A stretch of DNA of 47,599 bases, taken from Alphaproteobacteria bacterium. Lineage in GTDB: Bacteria; Pseudomonadota; Alphaproteobacteria; Rhizobiales; Beijerinckiaceae. Under the pieces are notes generated by a model that worked only from the letters and a program-made list of their open reading frames with translations, was not told the origin of the DNA and ran no database searches. Positions 8,207 through 25,614 of this stretch are shown piece after piece (position 1 is the first letter of the stretch; every line of letters begins with the position of its first letter). The stretch spans positions 1 through 47,599 of the forward strand of contig VGDY01000011.1 in the NCBI GenBank assembly GCA_016869555.1, in the 5' to 3' direction. The translations under genes were made by a program, and so were the position numbers.

Positions 8207-10459
8207 ATGGGCGGTTCGCAGGAGGAGCTGAAACACCGCGCGCGGGCGGCCGCTAGCGTCGCCGCTGATCCTGTTTTTTCGGCTCTGGACGCCTCCGGCG
8301 CGCCGATCGTGGTCGCCAGCGGCTCTCCGTTGCGCATTGATTTTTTGAATGATTCGGCCCGCGCCGTGTTTGACGAAGACGCAGCGGCGCTTAGCGAGCG
8401 CCTGTTTCGCGACGACGAACCAGGCGCGCGCCGACTGGCCGAACTCGTCGGCGAACTCTCTAGCGACCAAGGCCTGCGCCTTGAACGACTGCGCTTTCGC
8501 TTCTCCCGCGCGGCGCAGACAATCACCGTTCTCTGCCGCAACCTCGGGGCGGATGGCGGCGTCTCTTTCGTGGTCGCGGCGCTTGACCTTCGCGCCGATT
8601 CGGCTTCGGGAAATCCGCGCCGCGCCAACGCGTCGCCCGGCGCGGAAGTCAGCGACGAGACGGCGACTCTTCGTCGCAGCCTCGCGGCGCGACATGGCGC
8701 TCATTCGCCGCGCTTTCTGTGGAAGACCGACGCGCAGGGGCGCTTCACCGACGTGACCCACGTCCTGGCCGACGTCGTCGGCGACGCCGCCGCCGACATC
8801 CTCGGCCGCTCTGTGGAGGAGGCGTCGCGGGCGCTCCGGCTCGACCCGGCGTTTGCGCGCGCCGTGGCCTCGCGTCGGGCATGGAGCGGGGTCGAGGTCG
8901 AATGGCCGCTGGAGGGCGACAGCGGGCGCACGCCGACGACGCTCGGCGCCCTGCAACTGACCGATTCGGCCAAGCGGTTTCTGGGCTACCAGGGCTATGG
9001 CGTGCTGCATATCGATCGCGCGCGCGCCGCCGAGCCGCCACCCGAAGCGGCTTACGCTGAAGCGCGCGCCGTTAATCCGCTAGCCGACAATGTCGTGACG
9101 TTGCGCGCGCGCGCCGCTTCGGATTCTCTGGAGACGCTCAGTTCGAGCGAGCGTCTGGCGTTCGACGAAATCGCGCGGGCGCTCAAGGAAGGCGCCGCCG
9201 TCGCATCGGACGCGACCGCCGCCTCGGAATCGATGCTCGAGGGGCCGGAGGCGCAACCGCCGACTGCGCTGCAACGCCATCGCGAACAACCGATGCCGGG
9301 TCCCGAGCAAAGCGCTTTGGCGCTCGCGCGGGCGCTCGAAGAAAAGCTCGCACGGGCGAGATCGGAAAGCGCGCCGCTTGGCGCGGCCTTCGATGTGTCG
9401 CAGACGCCGCTTGCGATCGTAACCGCCGACGGGACGATGGCGAGGGCCAATGCGCGTTTCGCCGCCTGTTTCGGGACCGATGCGCGCGACTGCCGGAACC
9501 GCGGTCTGGCCTCCTTACTCAGCCCCGCCGACGCGCAAAATTTGGCTCAGCGCCTGTCGCTCGTCCTGTCTGACGAAAACGCGCGACAGCCATTATCATG
9601 CGCTCCCCCGGGCGGCGGCGCTCCGGTCGACCTCGCGCTGCGCCCGCTTCCCGTCGAGGGAAAACCGTTCATCCTGGTTTCCGTCGAGGCGCGCGAGGAC
9701 GCCGCTTCGAACGATCGCGCGGTTGAGGCGGCGCGGCTCGCCGCCGAAAGCGCCAATGCGGCGAAATCCGACTTTCTCACGCGCGTGTCGCATGAGATTC
9801 GCACCCCGCTCAACGCCATCATCGGCTTCGCCGAAGTGATGATGGAGGAGCGGCTCGGGCCGATCGGCTCTCCGCGCTATAAGGAATATTTGAAGGACAT
9901 GCACGCCTCGGGCGCCCATGTCCTGTCGCTGGTCAACGATCTGCTGGATCTTTCCAAGATCGAAGCGGGCAAGATGGAGCTTTCTTTCGCGCGCGTGGAC
10001 GCCAATGCGGTCATCGAGGAATGCGCGTCGATCATGCAGGCGCAGGCCTATCAGGCGCGCGTCGTCTTGCGGCTCGCGCTCGCGCCAGGCCTGCCGCCGC
10101 TACGCGCCGATCGGCGTTCCTTGAAGCAGATTCTTCTCAATCTTCTGTCGAACGCGGTGAAATTCAACGAGCCAGGCGGGCAGGTCATCGTATCGAGCGC
10201 GCTGAACGACGCCGGCTGCGTCATCGTTCGCGTCAAGGACACCGGGATCGGCATGTCTGAAGAAGATGTCGCCACCGCCCTCGAACCGTTTCGGCAGGTG
10301 GACCCGTCGCGCAAGACGAGCGGCACTGGGCTGGGACTGCCGCTAACCAAGGCTCTGATCGAGGCAAATCACGCCTCTTTCGCCGTCAAGAGCAGTCGCA
10401 ACGAAGGCACGCTGATCGAAATCGCCTTCGAGCCGCCGCAAGAGATCGCAGCGGAATAG
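8207..10459 (+). CDS. PAS-containing sensor histidine kinase (PleC/DivJ-like architecture)
   Basis: About 750 residues when started at the ATG at 8207 (the frame stays open to a TTG at 8024). The N-terminal two thirds contain PAS-like regions, one near FLWKTDAQGRFTDVTHV and another near FDVSQTPLAIVTADGTMARAN, separated by acidic, alanine-rich linkers. The kinase core has H529 in FLTRVSHEIRTPLNAIIGF, the N box NLLSNAVKFNEPGG, the G1 box DTGIGM and the G2 box GTGLGLPL. No transmembrane helix is evident, so it is probably a cytoplasmic kinase. This layout resembles the cell-cycle kinases of alphaproteobacteria that act on DivK-like regulators, but a role here is only a guess. No response regulator is adjacent. 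The exact start is uncertain. Confidence 0.85.
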   Translation: MGGSQEELKHRARAAASVAADPVFSALDASGAPIVVASGSPLRIDFLNDSARAVFDEDAAALSERLFRDDEPGARRLAELVGELSSDQGLRLERLRFRFSRAAQTITVLCRNLGADGGVSFVVAALDLRADSASGNPRRANASPGAEVSDETATLRRSLAARHGAHSPRFLWKTDAQGRFTDVTHVLADVVGDAAADILGRSVEEASRALRLDPAFARAVASRRAWSGVEVEWPLEGDSGRTPTTLGALQLTDSAKRFLGYQGYGVLHIDRARAAEPPPEAAYAEARAVNPLADNVVTLRARAASDSLETLSSSERLAFDEIARALKEGAAVASDATAASESMLEGPEAQPPTALQRHREQPMPGPEQSALALARALEEKLARARSESAPLGAAFDVSQTPLAIVTADGTMARANARFAACFGTDARDCRNRGLASLLSPADAQNLAQRLSLVLSDENARQPLSCAPPGGGAPVDLALRPLPVEGKPFILVSVEAREDAASNDRAVEAARLAAESANAAKSDFLTRVSHEIRTPLNAIIGFAEVMMEERLGPIGSPRYKEYLKDMHASGAHVLSLVNDLLDLSKIEAGKMELSFARVDANAVIEECASIMQAQAYQARVVLRLALAPGLPPLRADRRSLKQILLNLLSNAVKFNEPGGQVIVSSALNDAGCVIVRVKDTGIGMSEEDVATALEPFRQVDPSRKTSGTGLGLPLTKALIEANHASFAVKSSRNEGTLIEIAFEPPQEIAAE

Positions 10460-18357: not shown

Positions 18358-18876
18358 CAAAACCCTCATAGTCGCGCGCAACCGCTGCGCGCCGGCGATC
18401 GCATCAGGAGCGACATTCAAATGAGACGGTTGCTTGCGAAGCGTCGCGCCGCCTGCGTCTCCAACAGGCTCCCGCAAGAGGCGCGCCATGCGCCGCTGGT
18501 TCGATTGCGTCGGTTCGCCGCAGGCGACACCGAAGGCATGTGGTCGAACCCTTCGGCGGCAGGTAACGTTCGACGGAGCGGACGGTCAAGCGGATCTAGC
18601 CGAGAATGACGGCTTCGCGACAATATGTCACCAGCTGCCTCCATCGAACCCCGGGCAAAAGTCCAGAGCTCTTGAGCCGAAAAATCCTTCCGCAAATTTA
18701 CCGCTTCCGGCATGACGCGAGCTTGTTTGTGGCGGCTCGCTATGTTTGAATTTCCATTCGGCGCCGGGCGGCGCAAAGCTTCTGCTATCTCGGGCGGCGC
18801 CCTTCGTTGGCGGCGAAGAGTTTGGCGTCTTCTGCAAGAGGCGCCTTTTCCAGCAGCAAATGCGGAGAAACTACTC
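18358..18876. other. Intergenic region before the first DUF4239-type gene
   Basis: About 520 bp with no convincing gene. The frame of the following protein is open back to 18712, but its N-terminal residues are basic and unlike the family. GC content falls towards the right end, where the lower-GC DUF4239-type gene begins. No terminator or named operator was found. Confidence 0.4.
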
Positions 18877-19638
18877 GTGAATAGCGTTCAGATGGCTATG
18901 TTAACGCTTTTTTTAACATTGCTCGCTGGTCTAATTGGTTTTTGTGTTACGCTGTATCTCAAGGAGAGCTGGCTTGATGGAGTATCTAGAGATCAATTTA
19001 AAGCGCTGAGAAACATGATTGGTTCATTGCTTGCCGTATGCCTTGCTTTTTTATTGGTAACGGCAAAAAACAATTTTGATAAGAAGGTTGAATTGGTAAG
19101 AGCGCAGGCGTCTAATGTTATTTTGCTCCATCGCGTGCTGGATTTGTTGGGTGACGAGGCCAGCGAAGCCAGAACAAAAATAATACGCACGCTACAAGGA
19201 CAGATCGACCTCTTGCAGGTCGCGCGTCACGACAATATCGATCAAAAGGAGGCTTTTAAGAAAGCCAAGATCGATTCGTTTCGCGAAGCCGTGCTCGCTA
19301 TAGAAGCGAAAGATCAGAATAAATCATGGGCGAAGTCGACCGCTCTTAATTTGACGCAAGAAATCACCGGCATAAGATGGAAAATATTTAACGAATTGAA
19401 CGCCAATATTCCACTGGAAGTGGTCCTATTCCTGATCGCTCTGCTGGTAACTGTATTCTTCAATTTTGGCGTCATCTCGCACAATCACTGGACTGCGGCG
19501 TTTGGGCTGATCGCGGCGTCCATGTGCGTCTCGGGGGCAATCTTTCTACTGGTGGAGCTTGATCGGCCATTCCAAGGATTTTTCACTGTTCCAACCGAAC
19601 CTCTGAAGTCCGCGGTCGATATTATCAAGATGGAATAG
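18877..19638 (+). CDS. DUF4239-type (bestrophin-like) membrane protein, first of a tandem pair
   Basis: About 253 residues when begun at the GTG at 18877, which has GGAG about nine bases upstream; the frame is open to an ATG at 18712, but those residues look non-coding. Two hydrophobic helices near the N-terminus (MLTLFLTLLAGLIGFCVTLY and MIGSLLAVCLAFLLVTA) flank a short loop. A charged helical cytoplasmic region of about 120 residues follows, then two more helices (VVLFLIALLVTVFFNFGVI and FGLIAASMCVSGAIFLLVE). The ending LDRPFQGFFTVPTEPL is characteristic of DUF4239. Function is unproven; the family has been compared with bestrophin channels. The coding sequence is visibly AT-richer than its neighbours, suggesting transfer. 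Confidence 0.65.
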   Translation: MNSVQMAMLTLFLTLLAGLIGFCVTLYLKESWLDGVSRDQFKALRNMIGSLLAVCLAFLLVTAKNNFDKKVELVRAQASNVILLHRVLDLLGDEASEARTKIIRTLQGQIDLLQVARHDNIDQKEAFKKAKIDSFREAVLAIEAKDQNKSWAKSTALNLTQEITGIRWKIFNELNANIPLEVVLFLIALLVTVFFNFGVISHNHWTAAFGLIAASMCVSGAIFLLVELDRPFQGFFTVPTEPLKSAVDIIKME

Positions 19639-19821
19639 GTTGGTAGCCCGCCGCGCCCGCGGCGACGCCGGAAGTTCGCCTGGCGAGATCGTCATCGAAC
19701 GCGGCAATTTTCGCTCCTATTTTCCGCTCGCGACGTCAATAAATTTGAGCGTCGTCGTCAGCCTTCGGTTATGGCCGTTCAACCGACAAGGCTTTTGACA
19801 ATTTGACGCAGCCGCCTCCTA

Positions 19822-20628
19822 ATGCCGCCAAAAAAGGAGGCGTCCTTGCCCGAATTGTTCAAGCATCTGTCCGCCGCGCAAATGGCCGCGCTTTTTTGCC
19901 TGAGCGCTCTCGCTCTAACCTGGTCGGGCGTTTTTCTTTTCCAACGGCTCATGCACTCATGGATACATGGGCGTCGCAACGCCAATGAAATGGTCGGACT
20001 GACCTTGGCGGGGTTTGCCGCGCTATACGGCATTCTGCTCGGATTGCTGGCGGTCGAGGCCTTTCAGGATTTCTCCGCCGTCAAGGATATCGTTTCCAAA
20101 GAGGCGGCGACGCTCGCGGCCCTCCGCAGGGATATTGGCGGCTTCCCGCAGCCGATCCGGACCGAGCTGCAGGAAGAGTTGCGCGCCTATGCGCGCGAGG
20201 CGATCGACGCCGTCCACCCGCCGCCCGACATTGCTCAGAATCCACATTCGTCGTCGCCGGGATTGGACGCGCTGTTCGCGCTGGTGATGAATTTTCAGCC
20301 CCAGCTCAAGAGCGAGGAGATGATTCAGACGGAAGCGTTCACGCGATTGAACATGCTCGTCGAGCATCGTCGCTATCTCATCGGCGCGGGCGAGGACGGC
20401 ATTCCGAGCGCATTGTGGTGGGTGGTTTGTCTCGGCGGCGTTATATTGATTGGCCTGATGTGGCTCTTCGACATGGAACTCCATGTCCATCTGATTCTCA
20501 GCAGCGCGATGGGACTGTTTCTCGGCTCGGTGGTGTTTCTCATCGCTGCGCTCGACAATCCCTTCAACGGGGGCCTGACGGTCAGTTCGGGGCCGATCGA
20601 ATCGGTGCTGAAACTCATGGAGCGCTGA
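19822..20628 (+). CDS. DUF4239-type (bestrophin-like) membrane protein, second of a tandem pair
   Basis: A 268-residue protein with the same plan as its upstream neighbour. Two N-terminal helices (MAALFCLSALALTWSGVFLF and LAGFAALYGILLGLLAVEAF) are followed by a soluble helical segment of about 120 residues, two further helices (WWVVCLGGVILIGLMWLF and LSSAMGLFLGSVVFLIAAL), and the family ending LDNPFNGGLTVSSGPIESVL. The ATG at 19822 has only a weak ribosome site. The GC content is normal for the window, unlike the first copy. The two copies are clearly diverged, so they are not a recent duplication. A channel-like function is possible but unproven. Confidence 0.75.
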   Translation: MPPKKEASLPELFKHLSAAQMAALFCLSALALTWSGVFLFQRLMHSWIHGRRNANEMVGLTLAGFAALYGILLGLLAVEAFQDFSAVKDIVSKEAATLAALRRDIGGFPQPIRTELQEELRAYAREAIDAVHPPPDIAQNPHSSSPGLDALFALVMNFQPQLKSEEMIQTEAFTRLNMLVEHRRYLIGAGEDGIPSALWWVVCLGGVILIGLMWLFDMELHVHLILSSAMGLFLGSVVFLIAALDNPFNGGLTVSSGPIESVLKLMER

Positions 20629-20682: not shown

Positions 20683-21042
20683 TTAACCGGGGCCGCTCGG
20701 CGGACTTGCGCCGGCGCGCGCCGGCTTGATCGGTCCGACGTCGACCTGAATCTCGTCGCCCGCAACGCGAATCTCATAGGGGTGGAGCGCATTGCGGACG
20801 AGATGCGTCACGCATTTGCCGCTGGCGCCGTTGAACCCCCATTGATGGTGCGGGCAGGTGACGGTCTGACCATCGAAAGTGGCGTCGCTCAGCGGCATGT
20901 CGGCATGCGGACAGCGCCCGCGATAGGCCTTGAGTTCTCCGCCCGCCGGCCAAACGAGGAGCACGCTTTTTTTGCCGGCGTGAAAGAGGCCCATGCCCCC
21001 TTCGCTCACCGCGCCGGCGTTACAGATTGTCGTGAACCCCAT
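20683..21042 (-). CDS. Orphan Rieske [2Fe-2S] ferredoxin, TmoC-like
   Basis: About 119 residues. The Rieske cluster motif is CPHADMPLS with TCPHHQWGFNGASG, that is C-x-H and C-x2-H spaced as in soluble Rieske ferredoxins. The opening MGFTTICNAGAV and the ending HPYEIRVAGDEIQVDVG match the ferredoxin subunit of toluene-4-monooxygenase-type diiron oxygenases. The start at 21042 has GAAGG eight bases upstream; an in-frame ATG at 21072 is an alternative. It should carry electrons to an oxygenase, but no oxygenase or reductase subunit is in the window, so its partner is unknown. It is convergent with the DUF4239-type gene. Confidence 0.85.
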   Translation of the reverse strand: MGFTTICNAGAVSEGGMGLFHAGKKSVLLVWPAGGELKAYRGRCPHADMPLSDATFDGQTVTCPHHQWGFNGASGKCVTHLVRNALHPYEIRVAGDEIQVDVGPIKPARAGASPPSGPG

Positions 21043-21383
21043 CACGATCGCCTTCGGAAAATCAGTCTCCATCCGGCGAGTGCAAGTTGCGGACCAGCGC
21101 GGCCATAGGCTGGGCGCGCTGGCGCAGAAGTATACGCGGCGAAGGCCTGTAGCAAAGAGAAAGCAGTTTTGAACGTCTCGCTGAGGCTCGTGCCCGGCCG
21201 TCCCGGATGGATAGCCGGACCCGTGCTGCTTTCCGACAATTTTTGTTTCAATCGCCAGAGCACTGGATGCATACGAAATGAAATTGGCGCCGTTGGCCGA
21301 CGTTGTATTGAGCGCCAAAGGGCAAAGCGCCTGCAGCCGCTACCCAAGGGGAGACTTCGTCAAAGCCGGGAACATGCACCCGA
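21043..21383. other. Region between the Rieske gene and ietS
   Basis: About 340 bp containing the presumed promoter of the Rieske gene. On the plus strand an ATG at 21278 opens a 39-codon frame ending at 21397, overlapping the end of ietS by 14 bp. Its codons (DVVLSAKGQSACSR) look protein-like, but there is no ribosome site and no family match. It may be the tail of a lost gene. Confidence 0.35.
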
Positions 21384-23861
21384 TCACGTTTCTATGACGA
21401 CCGGGATGCCGATCTGGTTGGCAACGGGGGTATAAAGGTCTGCCTGAACATCGGGCGTTTCGAGCGACACGATTAACGAGTATCGCGCGGTCTTATCCCA
21501 GGCGCCAAGATGTGGCCGTTTGTTCCACCATCCCATGGTGGGATACACCGCTATATGCCCACGCGCAGCTAAGTCGATTGCCCTGCCGCGCCACGTATCG
21601 GAGTGAATGGAGCCCAAAGAGGCTAATGAGTGGCGTCGACCAAAATCCCAGCCTGGATCGGGGATCAATGGTCCCTGGTAGTCATCATCTCGGACAAATT
21701 TATTGATGCGTTGCTGAAACATTGTGTCTGTTTCAAGCGGCTTGCGTACGGCAAAGCGAAGTCCGTGAGACTGGTAGCCGTACCGTTGAGTCCAGCCTCG
21801 TGATCCCGGACTTGGTTCTATGAAGTAAGACAAGGTCACGCGCATGGAAACCTCGGCATTTTGTAGCGCTTCGAGCGCTTCGCGAGGCCAGGGCAGAGCG
21901 TGCAAATTCATATCGCGGGTTTTCACATCTCCTTCGTCCTTGTAGAAGGGCTGAATCTCGCTCTCGGCAATGAGCGTGAGCGAATTGTCGAGGCTCGATA
22001 GAAGACGTCGCATATTCGGGGTTCCGTGGCCGAAACAACGTAGCAATCCACGATAATCGATTTGACGACGAGCATTGGTAAACCGCGCCCTCATTGCTTG
22101 CGACCATTCGGCTGAGTGAACGAGCAAGGCTCGAACAGTCTCGGGGGCAAGGCCTGGGTATTTCGACCAGACCATTGCGGCCAACCGCGCCGCCAGTGCG
22201 GTTGCCGCGCTTGTATCACCGAAGGTGGTAAGCGCCCCGCGCCCGATCATGCTATGCGACGCGCTTAAAAGCTGAAGATCATCGAGATAATCCGGTTCGG
22301 GTACGGCGGGGTTCGTCCCCATGTTACCCGCCTCCATCACGATGTCCGGCTTGATCGCCCATTTACCCCAAGTCATCGAGGTACAGCTACAGGGCGAAAG
22401 ATCGCCGGGTTGAGCAAGGGGATTCCAGTCAGGCCACTTTGTGCTGTCGATTGAGAATTTATCGGTGCAACCCCCAACGGTTAATGCATTCCATGCCTGT
22501 GCGGGATCATGAATGCCGTCGGTCAGGTTTGAATTGGCATAAAGGTGACGTTGCGATGGATCGGTGTTGCCCGCCGAAACCAGCATCAAACGGCGCGGTC
22601 CGTCGTCGACGCCAGCGGCAAGCGCATCGATGGCCGCAGACCAGGATGAAGGACGGCCTCGGTCCCTTCCATCTTGAGCAGTAACGGCCATGCAGAAGAC
22701 GCGTTTGCGATCCGCGGTTACTTCGACGCGGTAAGTACTCTCTTGGGTGACGGCACCATATAGTTCGGGATCGTGCGGGTTGGCGCGGTTGACGATTTTT
22801 ACGGATTCAAGCCGATGGCCTATTTCCAGGTTAGCCGATGAAGACAGCGCCTCGGTTAGATCGCCATAGACAGCGAGTCCCGCCATCGGCGTTCCATGGC
22901 CTTCACGATCATCCACGCCCCAAGCTGGCCGATAGGTATGCAGGTCGTGGGGATCGGCAACAGGAGAAAGAAGCGGGTGACCGGCATTGAGTCCGGTGTC
23001 GAAAAGACAGATGTAAGGTGAGACGGACGAACTTACAGTTGTTCGCGACAGCAATTCGTCTATCCATTGCTGCTGGTCACTGACCATCATCTCTGAAAAG
23101 AATGCCGCCGTCTCCTTGGGCAGCCTGATTTCGGCAATCATGCCAAGAATGTCGATGGATCGAGACAGGTTGGCAGCCGTCCCTCGAACAAGAACAACCG
23201 TGCGATCGACGAAGTTGATGACCTGGTCTTTGACCAACAGTTGGAATTGCGGCGCAAACTGCCTCAAGCGAGACAGGTGGTCGACCGCGCTAGCGCGGCG
23301 CAACCAAAGTTCCCAGGTGATTTCGGTATCAAGATCGGGAAAAGGAAGGGTCTCTTCCGTCCAGAGCGCTTCCATCGCTGCGATTTTTATGTCGCTGATG
23401 CTTTCGACCAAATCCTGGTTCTTTGGCCGGGACAAGCCTGCTTCGACGCGCGGCTTCGTTTCCTTGTCCCTGTAGTCGGTAATTCGACGCAGAAACAAAT
23501 CGAGCTTACCGTCAGGCACAAAGACGATTGCCTGGGTACGGTTTTGCGGTGTCGTCTTGACGGCACAAAGTTCGATGCCACTCGGTGTGAGATCGAGACT
23601 CTCGAATTTGAGCGGGAAGTTGGGCTCGCTTTCGAACTCAAGATAAATGCCAAAGCCCGCGTCGAGTCCGAATGCCTTCTGTTCTTCGACACGTTGGTCA
23701 GCGATCGGTTTCGCTGCTTCAATTTTAGCGAGCAAGTCGGCCGCGTGCCGCGATCGGTATCGCGCGGGGAGACTCATGCGCTCATGCGGTGCCGCATTTG
23801 GGCTGGTAAATCGGGTCGGCTCAATAGGTGTCGGAACGATTAAATGCGGGTGCTGAGCCAT
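21384..23861 (-). CDS. ietS: Subtilisin-like (S8) serine protease of an IetAS-type module
   Basis: An 825-residue protein with a divergent N-terminal region of about 270 residues and an S8 peptidase domain. The triad is visible: D288 in YICLFDTGLNAGHP, H322 in GHGTPMAGLAVYG and S551 in GDTSAATALAARLAAM, with oxyanion N432 in SAGN. There is no signal peptide, so it acts in the cytoplasm. The final 220 residues have no recognised domain. Its ATG lies 20 bp after the stop of an AAA ATPase gene on the same strand. This gene order and domain pair match IetA/IetS, first described as a stability and incompatibility module on Agrobacterium plasmids, where IetS is the toxic partner, and later reported as anti-phage. 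Assignment rests on architecture and order, not on a search. Confidence 0.85.
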   Translation of the reverse strand: MAQHPHLIVPTPIEPTRFTSPNAAPHERMSLPARYRSRHAADLLAKIEAAKPIADQRVEEQKAFGLDAGFGIYLEFESEPNFPLKFESLDLTPSGIELCAVKTTPQNRTQAIVFVPDGKLDLFLRRITDYRDKETKPRVEAGLSRPKNQDLVESISDIKIAAMEALWTEETLPFPDLDTEITWELWLRRASAVDHLSRLRQFAPQFQLLVKDQVINFVDRTVVLVRGTAANLSRSIDILGMIAEIRLPKETAAFFSEMMVSDQQQWIDELLSRTTVSSSVSPYICLFDTGLNAGHPLLSPVADPHDLHTYRPAWGVDDREGHGTPMAGLAVYGDLTEALSSSANLEIGHRLESVKIVNRANPHDPELYGAVTQESTYRVEVTADRKRVFCMAVTAQDGRDRGRPSSWSAAIDALAAGVDDGPRRLMLVSAGNTDPSQRHLYANSNLTDGIHDPAQAWNALTVGGCTDKFSIDSTKWPDWNPLAQPGDLSPCSCTSMTWGKWAIKPDIVMEAGNMGTNPAVPEPDYLDDLQLLSASHSMIGRGALTTFGDTSAATALAARLAAMVWSKYPGLAPETVRALLVHSAEWSQAMRARFTNARRQIDYRGLLRCFGHGTPNMRRLLSSLDNSLTLIAESEIQPFYKDEGDVKTRDMNLHALPWPREALEALQNAEVSMRVTLSYFIEPSPGSRGWTQRYGYQSHGLRFAVRKPLETDTMFQQRINKFVRDDDYQGPLIPDPGWDFGRRHSLASLGSIHSDTWRGRAIDLAARGHIAVYPTMGWWNKRPHLGAWDKTARYSLIVSLETPDVQADLYTPVANQIGIPVVIET

Positions 23862-23881
23862 GCTGCTCCTATCAATATGCG

Positions 23882-24877
23882 CTATTCGTTAGAAACCTGC
23901 TTATGCGTTACAGCGAACTTTCGATCTTCAATCGCGCGCGCGAGGTCCGCCTGCGCTACGAAATCGCGCTCATGAACGAGCGCATCCTTAATGGCGTCTT
24001 CGCAGGCTCGCGTAATGTCCGCAAAATTCAGCCGCTCTGCGAGCGCCGCAGCTTTTGTCCATTGTATCCTCTTGGTCGGAAATCCGCTGAGTATAGAACG
24101 TAGCGTTTCCACGATCCTTTCCGCATCAGGCAAGGTGTATTCGATCACGTCGTCGAAACGACGGAATAACGCTCTATCCAGCATTCCGACATGATTGGTC
24201 GCCGCAATCACCAAGCTGTCGGAGTTATCTTGTTCGACCATCTGCAAGAAACTGTTCAGCACACGGCGTATCTCGCCGACATCGTTCGTGAAGCCCCGCG
24301 ACGATCCTATGCTGTCAAACTCGTCGAAGAGGTAGACACCGCGCGTCTGGTTGAGCGCCTCGAATATCAGCCGCAATTTCGCGGCAGTCTCACCCATGAA
24401 TTTCGTAATCAGGCCGTCCAGCCGCACAACAAACAACGGCAGGCCAAGTTCTCCAGCCAGGGCAGACGCGGTCATCGTCTTGCCGGTACCCGGATTGCCA
24501 ATGAGCAGAAGCTTGCGTCGTGGCGAGAGCCCCTTGTTTCGTATGACCTGAACCGCGCGATGCTCCCTGATGACGCGTTCCAGTTTGCTTCGCGTTTGAG
24601 CGCCAAGAACCATTTGCTTCAAGCGGACGCTCGGATAAGAAACGCTTAGCAGCTCGGCGATTTCGCCGCGCGGGCGAGCCAAGGGGATCGGCGACTTCGA
24701 CGGCAGCTGGGGGCGCGATTTGGCGCGATCGATCATAAGGCGGATTTCGTCGGCGACTTTGCCGTGGCCCATGCGCGCTTCATGGGCCGCAATCTGCATG
24801 GCAATCGCGTAAAAGTGCGCTTCATCTCCCTCGGTCAGGGATGCGATGAGCGCTTTGACTTGATCGGCGCTGGCCAT
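23882..24877 (-). CDS. ietA: AAA ATPase partner of an IetAS-type module
   Basis: A 331-residue single-module AAA+ ATPase. The N-terminal 115 residues are helical and charged, probably for substrate or partner recognition. Walker A is GNPGTGKT (127-134), Walker B is VYLFDEFDS with D185 and E186, sensor 1 is N228 in AATNHV, and the arginine finger is R239 or R240 in LFRRFDD. The class resembles the ATPase that precedes S8 proteases in IetAS loci. In the plasmid version IetA is held to restrain the protease, which suggests an antitoxin or regulatory role. It begins 82 bp from the 3' end of tRNA-Leu and is the first gene of the pair. The start region has no other good ATG. Confidence 0.88.
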   Translation of the reverse strand: MASADQVKALIASLTEGDEAHFYAIAMQIAAHEARMGHGKVADEIRLMIDRAKSRPQLPSKSPIPLARPRGEIAELLSVSYPSVRLKQMVLGAQTRSKLERVIREHRAVQVIRNKGLSPRRKLLLIGNPGTGKTMTASALAGELGLPLFVVRLDGLITKFMGETAAKLRLIFEALNQTRGVYLFDEFDSIGSSRGFTNDVGEIRRVLNSFLQMVEQDNSDSLVIAATNHVGMLDRALFRRFDDVIEYTLPDAERIVETLRSILSGFPTKRIQWTKAAALAERLNFADITRACEDAIKDALVHERDFVAQADLARAIEDRKFAVTHKQVSNE

Positions 24878-24958
24878 GATTAAAGTCCCGATCGCAACAC
24901 TAAAGCAGAATCATATGTGGCGTAAGAGATTAAAGGACCGCCAATTTTTTAGGCACTC

Positions 24959-25047
24959 TGGTGCGGGCGGCCGGAATCGAACCGGCACAGGCCTTGCGGC
25001 CCTACGGATTTTAAGTCCGTTGCGTCTACCAGTTTCGCCACGCCCGC
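24959..25047 (-). tRNA. tRNA-Leu (anticodon UAA)
   Basis: On the minus strand the acceptor arm GCGGGCG pairs with CGCCCGC, followed by discriminator A and an encoded CCA. The anticodon loop CTTAAAA, flanked by ACGGA and TCCGT, gives anticodon TAA. The long variable arm and the T arm CCGGTTCGATTCCGG fit a class II leucine tRNA; 89 nt with CCA. Its 3' end points towards the ietAS genes. Confidence 0.96.
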
Positions 25048-25092
25048 AAACCGCTCGTATATAGGCGGCGCCGCGATGGAACGCCAAGCGGT

Positions 25093-25614
25093 TTATCTCC
25101 GGCGCCTCGGCTTGGCGTCGGGCTTGGCGTCGGGCTTGCCGATCGGCGCCTGAAACGACAGTCCCGTATCCCAAGGAAAGAAGATCCAGGTGTCCTGCGA
25201 GACTTCGGTGACGAAAGTGTCGACCATCGGCAGGCCCTGCGGCTTGGCGTAGACGGTGGCGAAATGCGCCTTGGGCAGCATGTCGCGCACCGCCTTCGCC
25301 GTCGCGCCGGTGTCGACGAGATCGTCGATGATCAGCACTTCGGCGCTGGGCCGGGCAAGAATGGTTTCGGTCAGCGGCTTCAACACCTGCACGTCGCCGC
25401 GCTCCATCTCCTCATGATAGCTCGCGACGCAGACCGTTTCGACGACCGTTAGGCCGAGTTCGCGCGCCACGATCGCGGCCGGAACGAGACCGCCGCGCGT
25501 CACCGCGACGATCGCCGAAAATCCGCCGATCGAGGCGAGACGCCAGGCGAGCGCGCGCGCGTCGCGATGAAACATGTCCCAGGAGACCGGAAAGATTTTG
25601 TCGGACCCGTACAT
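25093..25614 (-). CDS. gpt: Xanthine phosphoribosyltransferase
   Basis: A 173-residue type I phosphoribosyltransferase for purine salvage (xanthine and guanine). The PRPP-binding loop is [20 protein letters not shown] near residue 94. The upstream [23 protein letters not shown] and the closing [12 protein letters not shown] are typical of Gpt. The protein is slightly longer than the E. coli enzyme because of a basic C-terminal tail with the repeat [10 protein letters not shown]. It is cytosolic or peripherally membrane-bound. The cinA-like gene lies 24 bp upstream on the same strand, suggesting co-transcription. Confidence 0.93.

Follow-up and report, generated by a model that had tools for sequence, protein, structure and literature searches.

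A chromosomal IetAS-like ATPase-protease pair at the 3' end of a tRNA-Leu(UAA) gene in a methane-oxidising alphaproteobacterium

The stretch analysed here, called the window throughout, comprises the 47,599 nucleotides of contig VGDY01000011.1 (assembly GCA_016869555.1) from a methane-oxidising bacterium of the Beijerinckiaceae. In it, two genes for an AAA ATPase and an S8 protease, resembling IetA and IetS, are inserted in the chromosome behind a tRNA gene. Read along the minus strand, the order is tRNA-Leu(UAA) (24959-25047, anticodon TAA; Rfam RF00005, 63.2 bits), whose 3' end is the insertion point, an 81-bp spacer (24878-24958), IetA (23882-24877), a 20-bp gap with an AGGAG-like ribosome site (23862-23881) and IetS (21384-23861). 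IetA, a classical AAA ATPase of 331 aa, was assigned from its open reading frame (ORF), Pfam and PADLOC matches and conserved residues; IetS, a cytoplasmic protease of 825 aa, from its ORF, the same two databases, its catalytic triad and a structural model. The two ORFs and the 20-bp gap were measured as the initial annotation had given them. It had also placed the start of the module 82 bp from the tRNA 3' end: the adjacency stands, but the distance from the CCA end to the ATG of IetA is 81 bp. The spacer is 94% identical in a related genome, G035, and had no significant match at the other sites fetched. Past IetS lies a foreign tail of the insert (21100-21383, no strand assigned), in which no copy of the tRNA 3' end was detected, and then, on the other flank, a Rieske-domain gene (20683-21063, minus strand), part of which is conserved in relatives and whose longest ORF extends to 21318.

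As had been noted before, the pair is lower in guanine-plus-cytosine (GC) content than its surroundings. Its GC is 0.560; the 10 kb on its left have 0.631, the DNA right of the tRNA 0.639 and the window 0.628. Among sliding 3.5-kb stretches, 7 of 442 have a GC below that of the pair, and five of these overlap most of it; in the same scan GC is about equally low in stretches starting at 18.1-19.1 kb, which cover the pair only partly. IetS has one match in the window's own genome (E 0.001).

The identity proposed for the two proteins held up in a profile search. The best PADLOC profile for the ATPase is IetA (PDLC02196, E 8.2e-72) and that for the protease is IetS (PDLC02198, E 1.2e-32); the assignment goes by these E values, which no chance match would reach. 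Pfam places AAA in the former (3e-29) and Peptidase_S8 at residues 282-613 of the latter (2e-53). The locus has what defines IetAS, namely an AAA ATPase and an S8 protease that match the profiles, with IetA directly upstream on the same strand. This arrangement recurs in the family: a scan of GTDB species genomes gave at least 566 confirmed relatives, and in the best 80 loci, which were kept, IetA is encoded in 78 and lies directly upstream on the same strand in 77, at -68 to +47 nt. One further locus has a 332-nt gap between the two genes, and two at contig starts have no IetA. In an alignment of 79 proteins (78 relatives and the window), D288, H322 and S551 of IetS and the oxyanion Asn432 are identical throughout. 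Counting only rows with letters at the position, the Walker lysine of IetA is kept in 75 of 75, the DE of Walker B, the sensor asparagine and both arginines in 77 of 77 each, and the pore loop reads (F/Y/L)(M/L)GE in all 77.

In the window itself the Walker and sensor residues of IetA are complete, as first reported. The motifs are GNPGTGKT (Walker A), LFDEFD (Walker B), ATN (sensor 1), FRRFD (arginine fingers) and KFMGE (pore loop). Pore loops of the FMG type are typical of polypeptide-threading ATPases such as those of the p97 and FtsH types. This loop suggests that IetA is active as an unfoldase and does more than bind passively. Its best sequence relatives with solved structures, among the best 60 of 264 matches, are p97/Cdc48, with FtsH lower.

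IetS has three parts, an alpha/beta N-terminal part (36-275), the S8 domain (about 276-622) and a beta C-terminal domain (about 623-822). It was described earlier as a cytoplasmic S8 protease with an intact D288/H322/S551 triad, and rightly so: the residues are in place and the N terminus has no signal-like hydrophobic stretch (the best mean hydropathy over 19 aa in the first 60 residues is 0.19). An AlphaFold2 model built from 32 sequences has a mean predicted local distance difference test score (pLDDT) of 79.9 and a predicted template modelling score (pTM) of 0.72. In VIA comparisons, KP-43 and SubHal align with Z 24.7 and 24.6 and a root-mean-square deviation (rmsd) of 3.2 over 375-377 residues of model positions 280-800, whereas plain subtilisins tie on Z but align only about 240 residues. 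The C-terminal part therefore has a counterpart in known subtilases and is predicted to be a beta domain like that of KP-43. With Foldseek, the whole model ranks first against ProN-Tk-SP, a subtilase with a pro-domain (E 1.1e-18, query template modelling (TM) score 0.32, whole-chain rmsd 24). KP-43 and SubHal are the nearest known counterparts for the C-terminal beta domain, and ProN-Tk-SP for a possible pro-domain. These three are secreted proteases; IetS differs from them in having a long extra N-terminal part and no signal-like N terminus.

Modelled alone, the N-terminal part reaches a mean pLDDT of 91.6 and contains a beta-alpha-beta-beta-alpha-beta, ferredoxin-like unit at fragment positions 144-213 (about 179-248 of IetS), just ahead of the catalytic domain. 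POIA1, a subtilisin inhibitor of the I9 kind, matches this unit with Z 6.2 and rmsd 3.3 over 74 residues, in the midst of unrelated ferredoxin-like folds with Z 5.7-7.5. None of the 32 sequences used for the model matched the I9 family in a Pfam search (E 0.1), and no family stood out when the folds of the whole N-terminal part were compared (the top Foldseek matches were cage-design and microcompartment proteins, TM below 0.4). A subtilisin-type pro-domain in this place is a reasonable lead, not a result. No solved structure of an IetA-IetS pair was recognised by sequence, the best of 11 matches to IetS being subtilases (E 2.9e-8).

The initial annotation had taken the outer parts of the protease to be featureless and possibly to hold the target-recognition function, a default that we abandon. 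The model gives them an alpha/beta part and a subtilase-type beta domain, and evolution of the C-terminal part is not faster than that of the catalytic domain. In the 79 sequences its conservation is 0.68-0.79 in bins 651-725 and 751-800, against 0.58-0.74 in the catalytic domain, with lower values in bins 726-750 (0.48) and 801-825 (0.56). The ratio of nonsynonymous to synonymous substitution (dN/dS) relative to G035 falls from 0.228 in residues 1-35 to 0.095 (36-275), 0.067 (276-622) and, lowest, 0.045 (623-825). Since conservation at least equals that of the catalytic domain, variable target recognition by the C-terminal part is disfavoured. Recognition may reside in the N-terminal part, which is less conserved (0.40-0.64). 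The two seemingly unknown parts of IetS become domains that can be tested, one a possible pro-domain and the other a conserved C-terminal beta domain.

How the pair is distributed at its site can be seen from related genomes. A query with the tRNA and the phosphoribosyltransferase gene found some match in 39 genomes of the genus (some partial or to other tRNAs), and stretches from 26 genomes besides the window were compared. Because the contig of G030 stops at the tRNA, the number of informative genomes, counting the window, is 26; the contigs of G001 and G029 reach only 1.3 and 0.4 kb beyond. At the DNA level, IetA/IetS lies at tRNA-Leu(UAA) in two of the 26, the window and G035. Wide conservation at the site, which the initial annotation had named as speaking against its proposal, is thus not what we found, and its view of the locus as chromosomal agrees with flanks that are syntenic with those of relatives. 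The site is empty in G016, G005, G006, G019 and G022, where the Rieske gene starts about 100 bp past the tRNA, and an ORF of 308-336 codons with a signal-like start takes the place of the pair in G036, G014, G024 and G004. The Rieske gene was not found past the tRNA in G018 and G001. Across Methylocystis-group genomes this site is variable. In the window, DNA shared with the empty sites resumes at about 21,100, which makes the insert about 3.9 kb long with only IetA and IetS inside. The nearest sister, G027, carries a peptidase M23 gene and a radical-SAM/cupin gene at the same tRNA (L062 898-3844).

The clearest sign of integration comes from G035, in which an exact copy (43 of 43 nt) of the tRNA 3' half (nt 47-89) lies beyond the insert and is followed by a secreted-protein ORF and then by the Rieske gene. 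The G035 contig past IetS ends in an apparent insertion-sequence end, and another contig ends in the opposite end, adjoining the 43-nt copy. From the reading direction of these ends, a single insertion sequence probably fills the assembly gap; the insertion-sequence end was found only at contig C9. A 16-bp direct repeat, unusually long for a target duplication, flanks the two ends (L065 128-143; L066 9010-9025). In G024 and G004, decayed tRNA copies of 28-30 nt (about 90%) lie behind the secreted-protein ORF. Weak tRNA-Leu-like remnants also occur past the Rieske gene in G004 (L074 2338-2400), G006 (L075 1247-1294) and G017 (L072 1756-1793), in coordinates that start at the tRNA side; hence the Rieske gene, too, may have come in as a cassette at an earlier time.

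A second docking was found in another genus. After G035, the next closest IetS among the best 80 relatives is that of Bradyrhizobium nitroreducens TSA1 (64-65% identity; 77% for IetA), and the window, G035 and TSA1 form one IetS clade (FastTree support 1.0). In TSA1 the pair lies 82 bp past a tRNA-Leu(UAA) gene, in the same orientation, and the anticodon loop is identical to that of the window. At the empty site of G085, about 80 bp past the tRNA comes DNA that resumes in TSA1 only at locus position 8641; the TSA1 insert is therefore about 3.7 kb and consists of IetAS alone. Within 1.5 kb past the tRNA, no match to IetAS DNA was found in any of the 19 related Bradyrhizobium loci compared (60 genomes searched). 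A search for a far-side tRNA copy at the TSA1 locus gave only chance-size matches, and no second copy of its tRNA was found in the genome (E 0.001). Because empty sites exist in both genera, simple vertical inheritance of the docking is unlikely. The empty sites, the G035 tRNA copy and this second case bear out the earlier claim that the module is docked at the tRNA, and they make the locus a clean chromosomal example of IetAS, for which one relative preserves a scar on the far side and a different genus shows insertion at the same kind of tRNA.

Comparison with G035, whose IetA and IetS proteins are 95% identical to those of the window, gives dN/dS values of 0.069 for IetA and 0.074 for IetS, and 0.035-0.19 for 14 neighbouring ORFs (a set from which pairs were removed if their identity fell below 70% or their ratio reached 0.3, and which may include some wrong-frame ORFs). 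By these ratios both genes are under purifying selection and are kept functional. The synonymous divergence (dS) is 0.34-0.40 for IetAS and 0.29-0.64 for the flanking ORFs, so the time since the copies of the window and G035 diverged is about that of the host genes. A closer relative of the window, G027 (dS 0.12-0.39), lacks the pair; the module must therefore have been lost or replaced at least once, or gained a second time. One might ask whether the module arrived within a larger island through ordinary homologous exchange, its position next to a tRNA being a mere by-product. In favour of this, neither an integrase nor a far-side tRNA copy was found in the window, and the dS values indicate that the present copy has been inherited largely vertically since the two species split. 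However, an exact tRNA copy bounds the G035 insert, and the Bradyrhizobium pair is docked at tRNA-Leu(UAA) in the same orientation and with the same spacing. We therefore regard exchange of an island as unlikely.

Beyond this site, relatives of the pair are patchily spread. Within the order, 17 of 397 genomes, counting that of the window, have an IetS homologue at E 1e-60 or better. IetS also matches 489 of 72,556 plasmid records (E 1e-5), none of them at 60% identity or more; 378 matches cover at least 80% of its length and 341 of the 489 records are typed as conjugative. Copies of IetAS are found on Methylocystis plasmids (genus plasmid records NZ_CP034088.1 and NZ_CP107560.1), and IetS homologues in 2 of 50,697 phage records as well as 37 viral contigs. 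Two Methylocystis plasmids carry a further gene, which encodes about 523 aa and begins 5 bp past IetS (L089 6905-8476; L101 10400-11971); the L089 gene had no Pfam match at E 0.01. In that branch the gene might supply a third component; no such gene follows IetS in the window.

Links of the whole family to integrases or tRNAs were considered and dropped. Integrase-like ORFs occur in at least 9 of the 80 genome loci and at least 7 of the 37 viral loci, lower bounds that come from a home-made profile from two seeds and a searched set outside which the window lay. A tRNA lies in the flanks of 11 of the 80 loci, and the module lies within 500 bp of a tRNA 3' end in four (L102, which is G035, L103, L159 and L164), too few to claim a preference.

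The spread of the family bears on what the pair might do. It could be a regulatory or quality-control protease assisted by an AAA protein, in which IetA feeds unfolded substrates to IetS as a two-protein, housekeeping analogue of FtsH or ClpXP. The FMG-type pore loop and the p97/Cdc48-type and FtsH relatives of IetA would suit such a role, but a housekeeping system would hardly be so patchy in the order, sit at a variable site and have homologues so often on plasmids; we find it very improbable. Alternatively, the pair could be a purely selfish addiction module that once stabilised an incoming plasmid or island and persists since losing IetA first kills the cell, and that in this branch would guard against phages only incidentally or not at all. 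Many plasmids carry homologues, conjugative ones and those of Methylocystis among them, the pair of SGI1 is ascribed a stabilising role in the available text (PMC5006074), and the window pair has no other cargo. On the other hand, nothing else in the 3.9-kb insert is there to be stabilised, yet the catalytic residues and purifying selection have been kept, and sister genomes live without the pair. Addiction alone seems unlikely to us, if worth keeping in mind.

We consider it likely that the window carries a chromosomal IetAS toxin-antitoxin or anti-phage module that came in as cargo of an element directed to tRNA-Leu(UAA), and that the integration genes of this element have since disappeared. 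IetS would be a cytoplasmic subtilase, harmful if left unchecked, and IetA, a p97/FtsH-like AAA ATPase encoded just upstream, would restrain it. The models suggest that IetA might do so by pulling on or clamping IetS, and that the ferredoxin-like unit in the place of a pro-domain could help to keep the protease silent. An infection, acting in the relatives studied through phage replication proteins, or the loss of IetA would free IetS, which would then cleave cell proteins and stop the phage along with the cell. Of all this, the window itself shows the identity and order of the genes, their intact catalytic and translocation residues, purifying selection and insertion at a tRNA 3' end. The roles of toxin and antitoxin, the anti-phage effect and its trigger would be those of relatives.

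Among these relatives, AAA-ATPase/subtilase pairs of mycoplasmas are described as acting as toxin-antitoxin systems (excerpts of PMC8562856), and in the SGI1 pair the protease is given as the toxin and the ATPase as the antitoxin (PMC5006074, in the same available text). Activation of ietAS by phage replication components is reported in a passage of PMC10732053 and in a table entry of PMC10286901. One 2023 paper states, in the part at hand, that the mechanism of IetAS still awaits description (PMC9958689), and no mechanistic study was found by title among the literature matches listed. In eight relative pairs from seven genus genomes, with loci picked by IetA, so that the reverse case could be missed, IetS is interrupted beside an intact IetA in the chromosomal copy of G032 (in-frame stop) and in G021 (frame change); in G004 an IetA-like gene is present but no IetS was recognisable. 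That the protease was lost rather than the ATPase fits the roles of toxin and antitoxin.

Several observations weigh against this interpretation. The interrupted IetS copies could be assembly or sequencing errors. The absence of the pair from G027 implies that the module is dispensable, and expressed from its own promoter the SGI1 pair is said to cause no post-segregational killing (PMC5006074, same text). No integrase was found in the window, nor was one seen beside the G035 and Bradyrhizobium copies, that of G035 having an assembly gap. A search of the window for a far-side tRNA copy gave a local alignment score of 17 against a shuffle mean of 16.6, with no match of 32 or more in 6.5 kb. Finally, the NCBIfam equivalogs matched, named anti-phage ATPase IteA (NF042959) and peptidase IteS (NF042956), score 193.7 bits against a cut-off of 510 and 49.1 bits against a cut-off of 900. 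Cut-offs missed by so much mean that function is transferred from distant relatives. By sequence, the pair is a divergent branch of IetAS outside NCBI's narrower subfamily. The locus is a sound new example of a known plasmid and phage-defence module, not a new kind of system.

The IetAS of pTiC58 ('IteA/IteS' in NCBIfam) shares gene order, the combination of AAA ATPase and S8 protease, catalytic residues and profile matches, whereas the window pair is chromosomal, docked at a tRNA and divergent, and was set beside IetAS via profiles. SgiAT of SGI1 and TA132/3 of mycoplasmas consist of the same two protein families and are chromosomal or island-borne, and a mycoplasma pair also has flanking direct repeats, as far as the excerpts go (PMC5006074, PMC8562856). 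There, toxin and antitoxin were shown by experiment, while the window pair is known from sequence and is likened to them through family descriptions. As for the vehicle, a cis-mobilizable element (CIME) has lost its integration and transfer genes and kept attL and attR, and stacked structures have been described (PMC5704250, portion available). The window recalls a CIME in that its cargo lies at a tRNA 3' end without integration or transfer genes, with only IetA and IetS between the tRNA and the Rieske gene. The G035 insert does so too: the tRNA and its 43-nt copy enclose it, and it is stacked against an older cassette, one that a decayed tRNA copy bounds in G024 and G004. It differs in that the window has no far-side copy above chance to provide both attL and attR, and in that the G035 insert is partly unassembled.

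As to transcription, a consensus scan of 20900-25200 found no sigma-70-like site, where shuffled sequences lead one to expect 2.1, though the host might rely on promoters of another type. Nor did it find a terminator-like site in the spacer between the tRNA and IetA. Read-through from the tRNA would be compatible with both results. One could go further and imagine that the branch of the window, G035 and B. nitroreducens is a minimal two-gene tRNA-Leu(UAA) cassette, integrated by a foreign integrase in trans and co-directional about 80 bp behind the tRNA. It would be transcribed from the tRNA promoter, so that its dose tracks tRNA supply, and the ferredoxin-like unit of IetS would be a built-in pro-domain, to be held or taken off by IetA, so that the pair would work as an ATP-gated zymogen and not as a passive toxin-antitoxin system. 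This scheme strikes us as a long shot.

The tRNA gene itself shows variation of another kind. In at least 15 of the 39 genus genomes the anticodon loop of tRNA-Leu(UAA) is split by an insert of 213-254 nt: G022 (L077 666-883), G002, G009, G010, G011, G021, G026, G031, G032, G061 and G062, and by match coordinates also G003, G008, G013 and G015. The tRNA of the window has no such insert. The insert of G022 matches Rfam Intron_gpI with 43.1 bits (E 7.6e-10), under the gathering score of 50, and a literature search on the split gene found nothing relevant. Farther from the tRNA, the window carries two adjacent genes for Bestrophin-like (PF14023) membrane proteins on the plus strand (18712-20628). 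Among the compared site stretches, the first was matched only in G027, and there without its middle part, and the second only in G027, G018 and G001.

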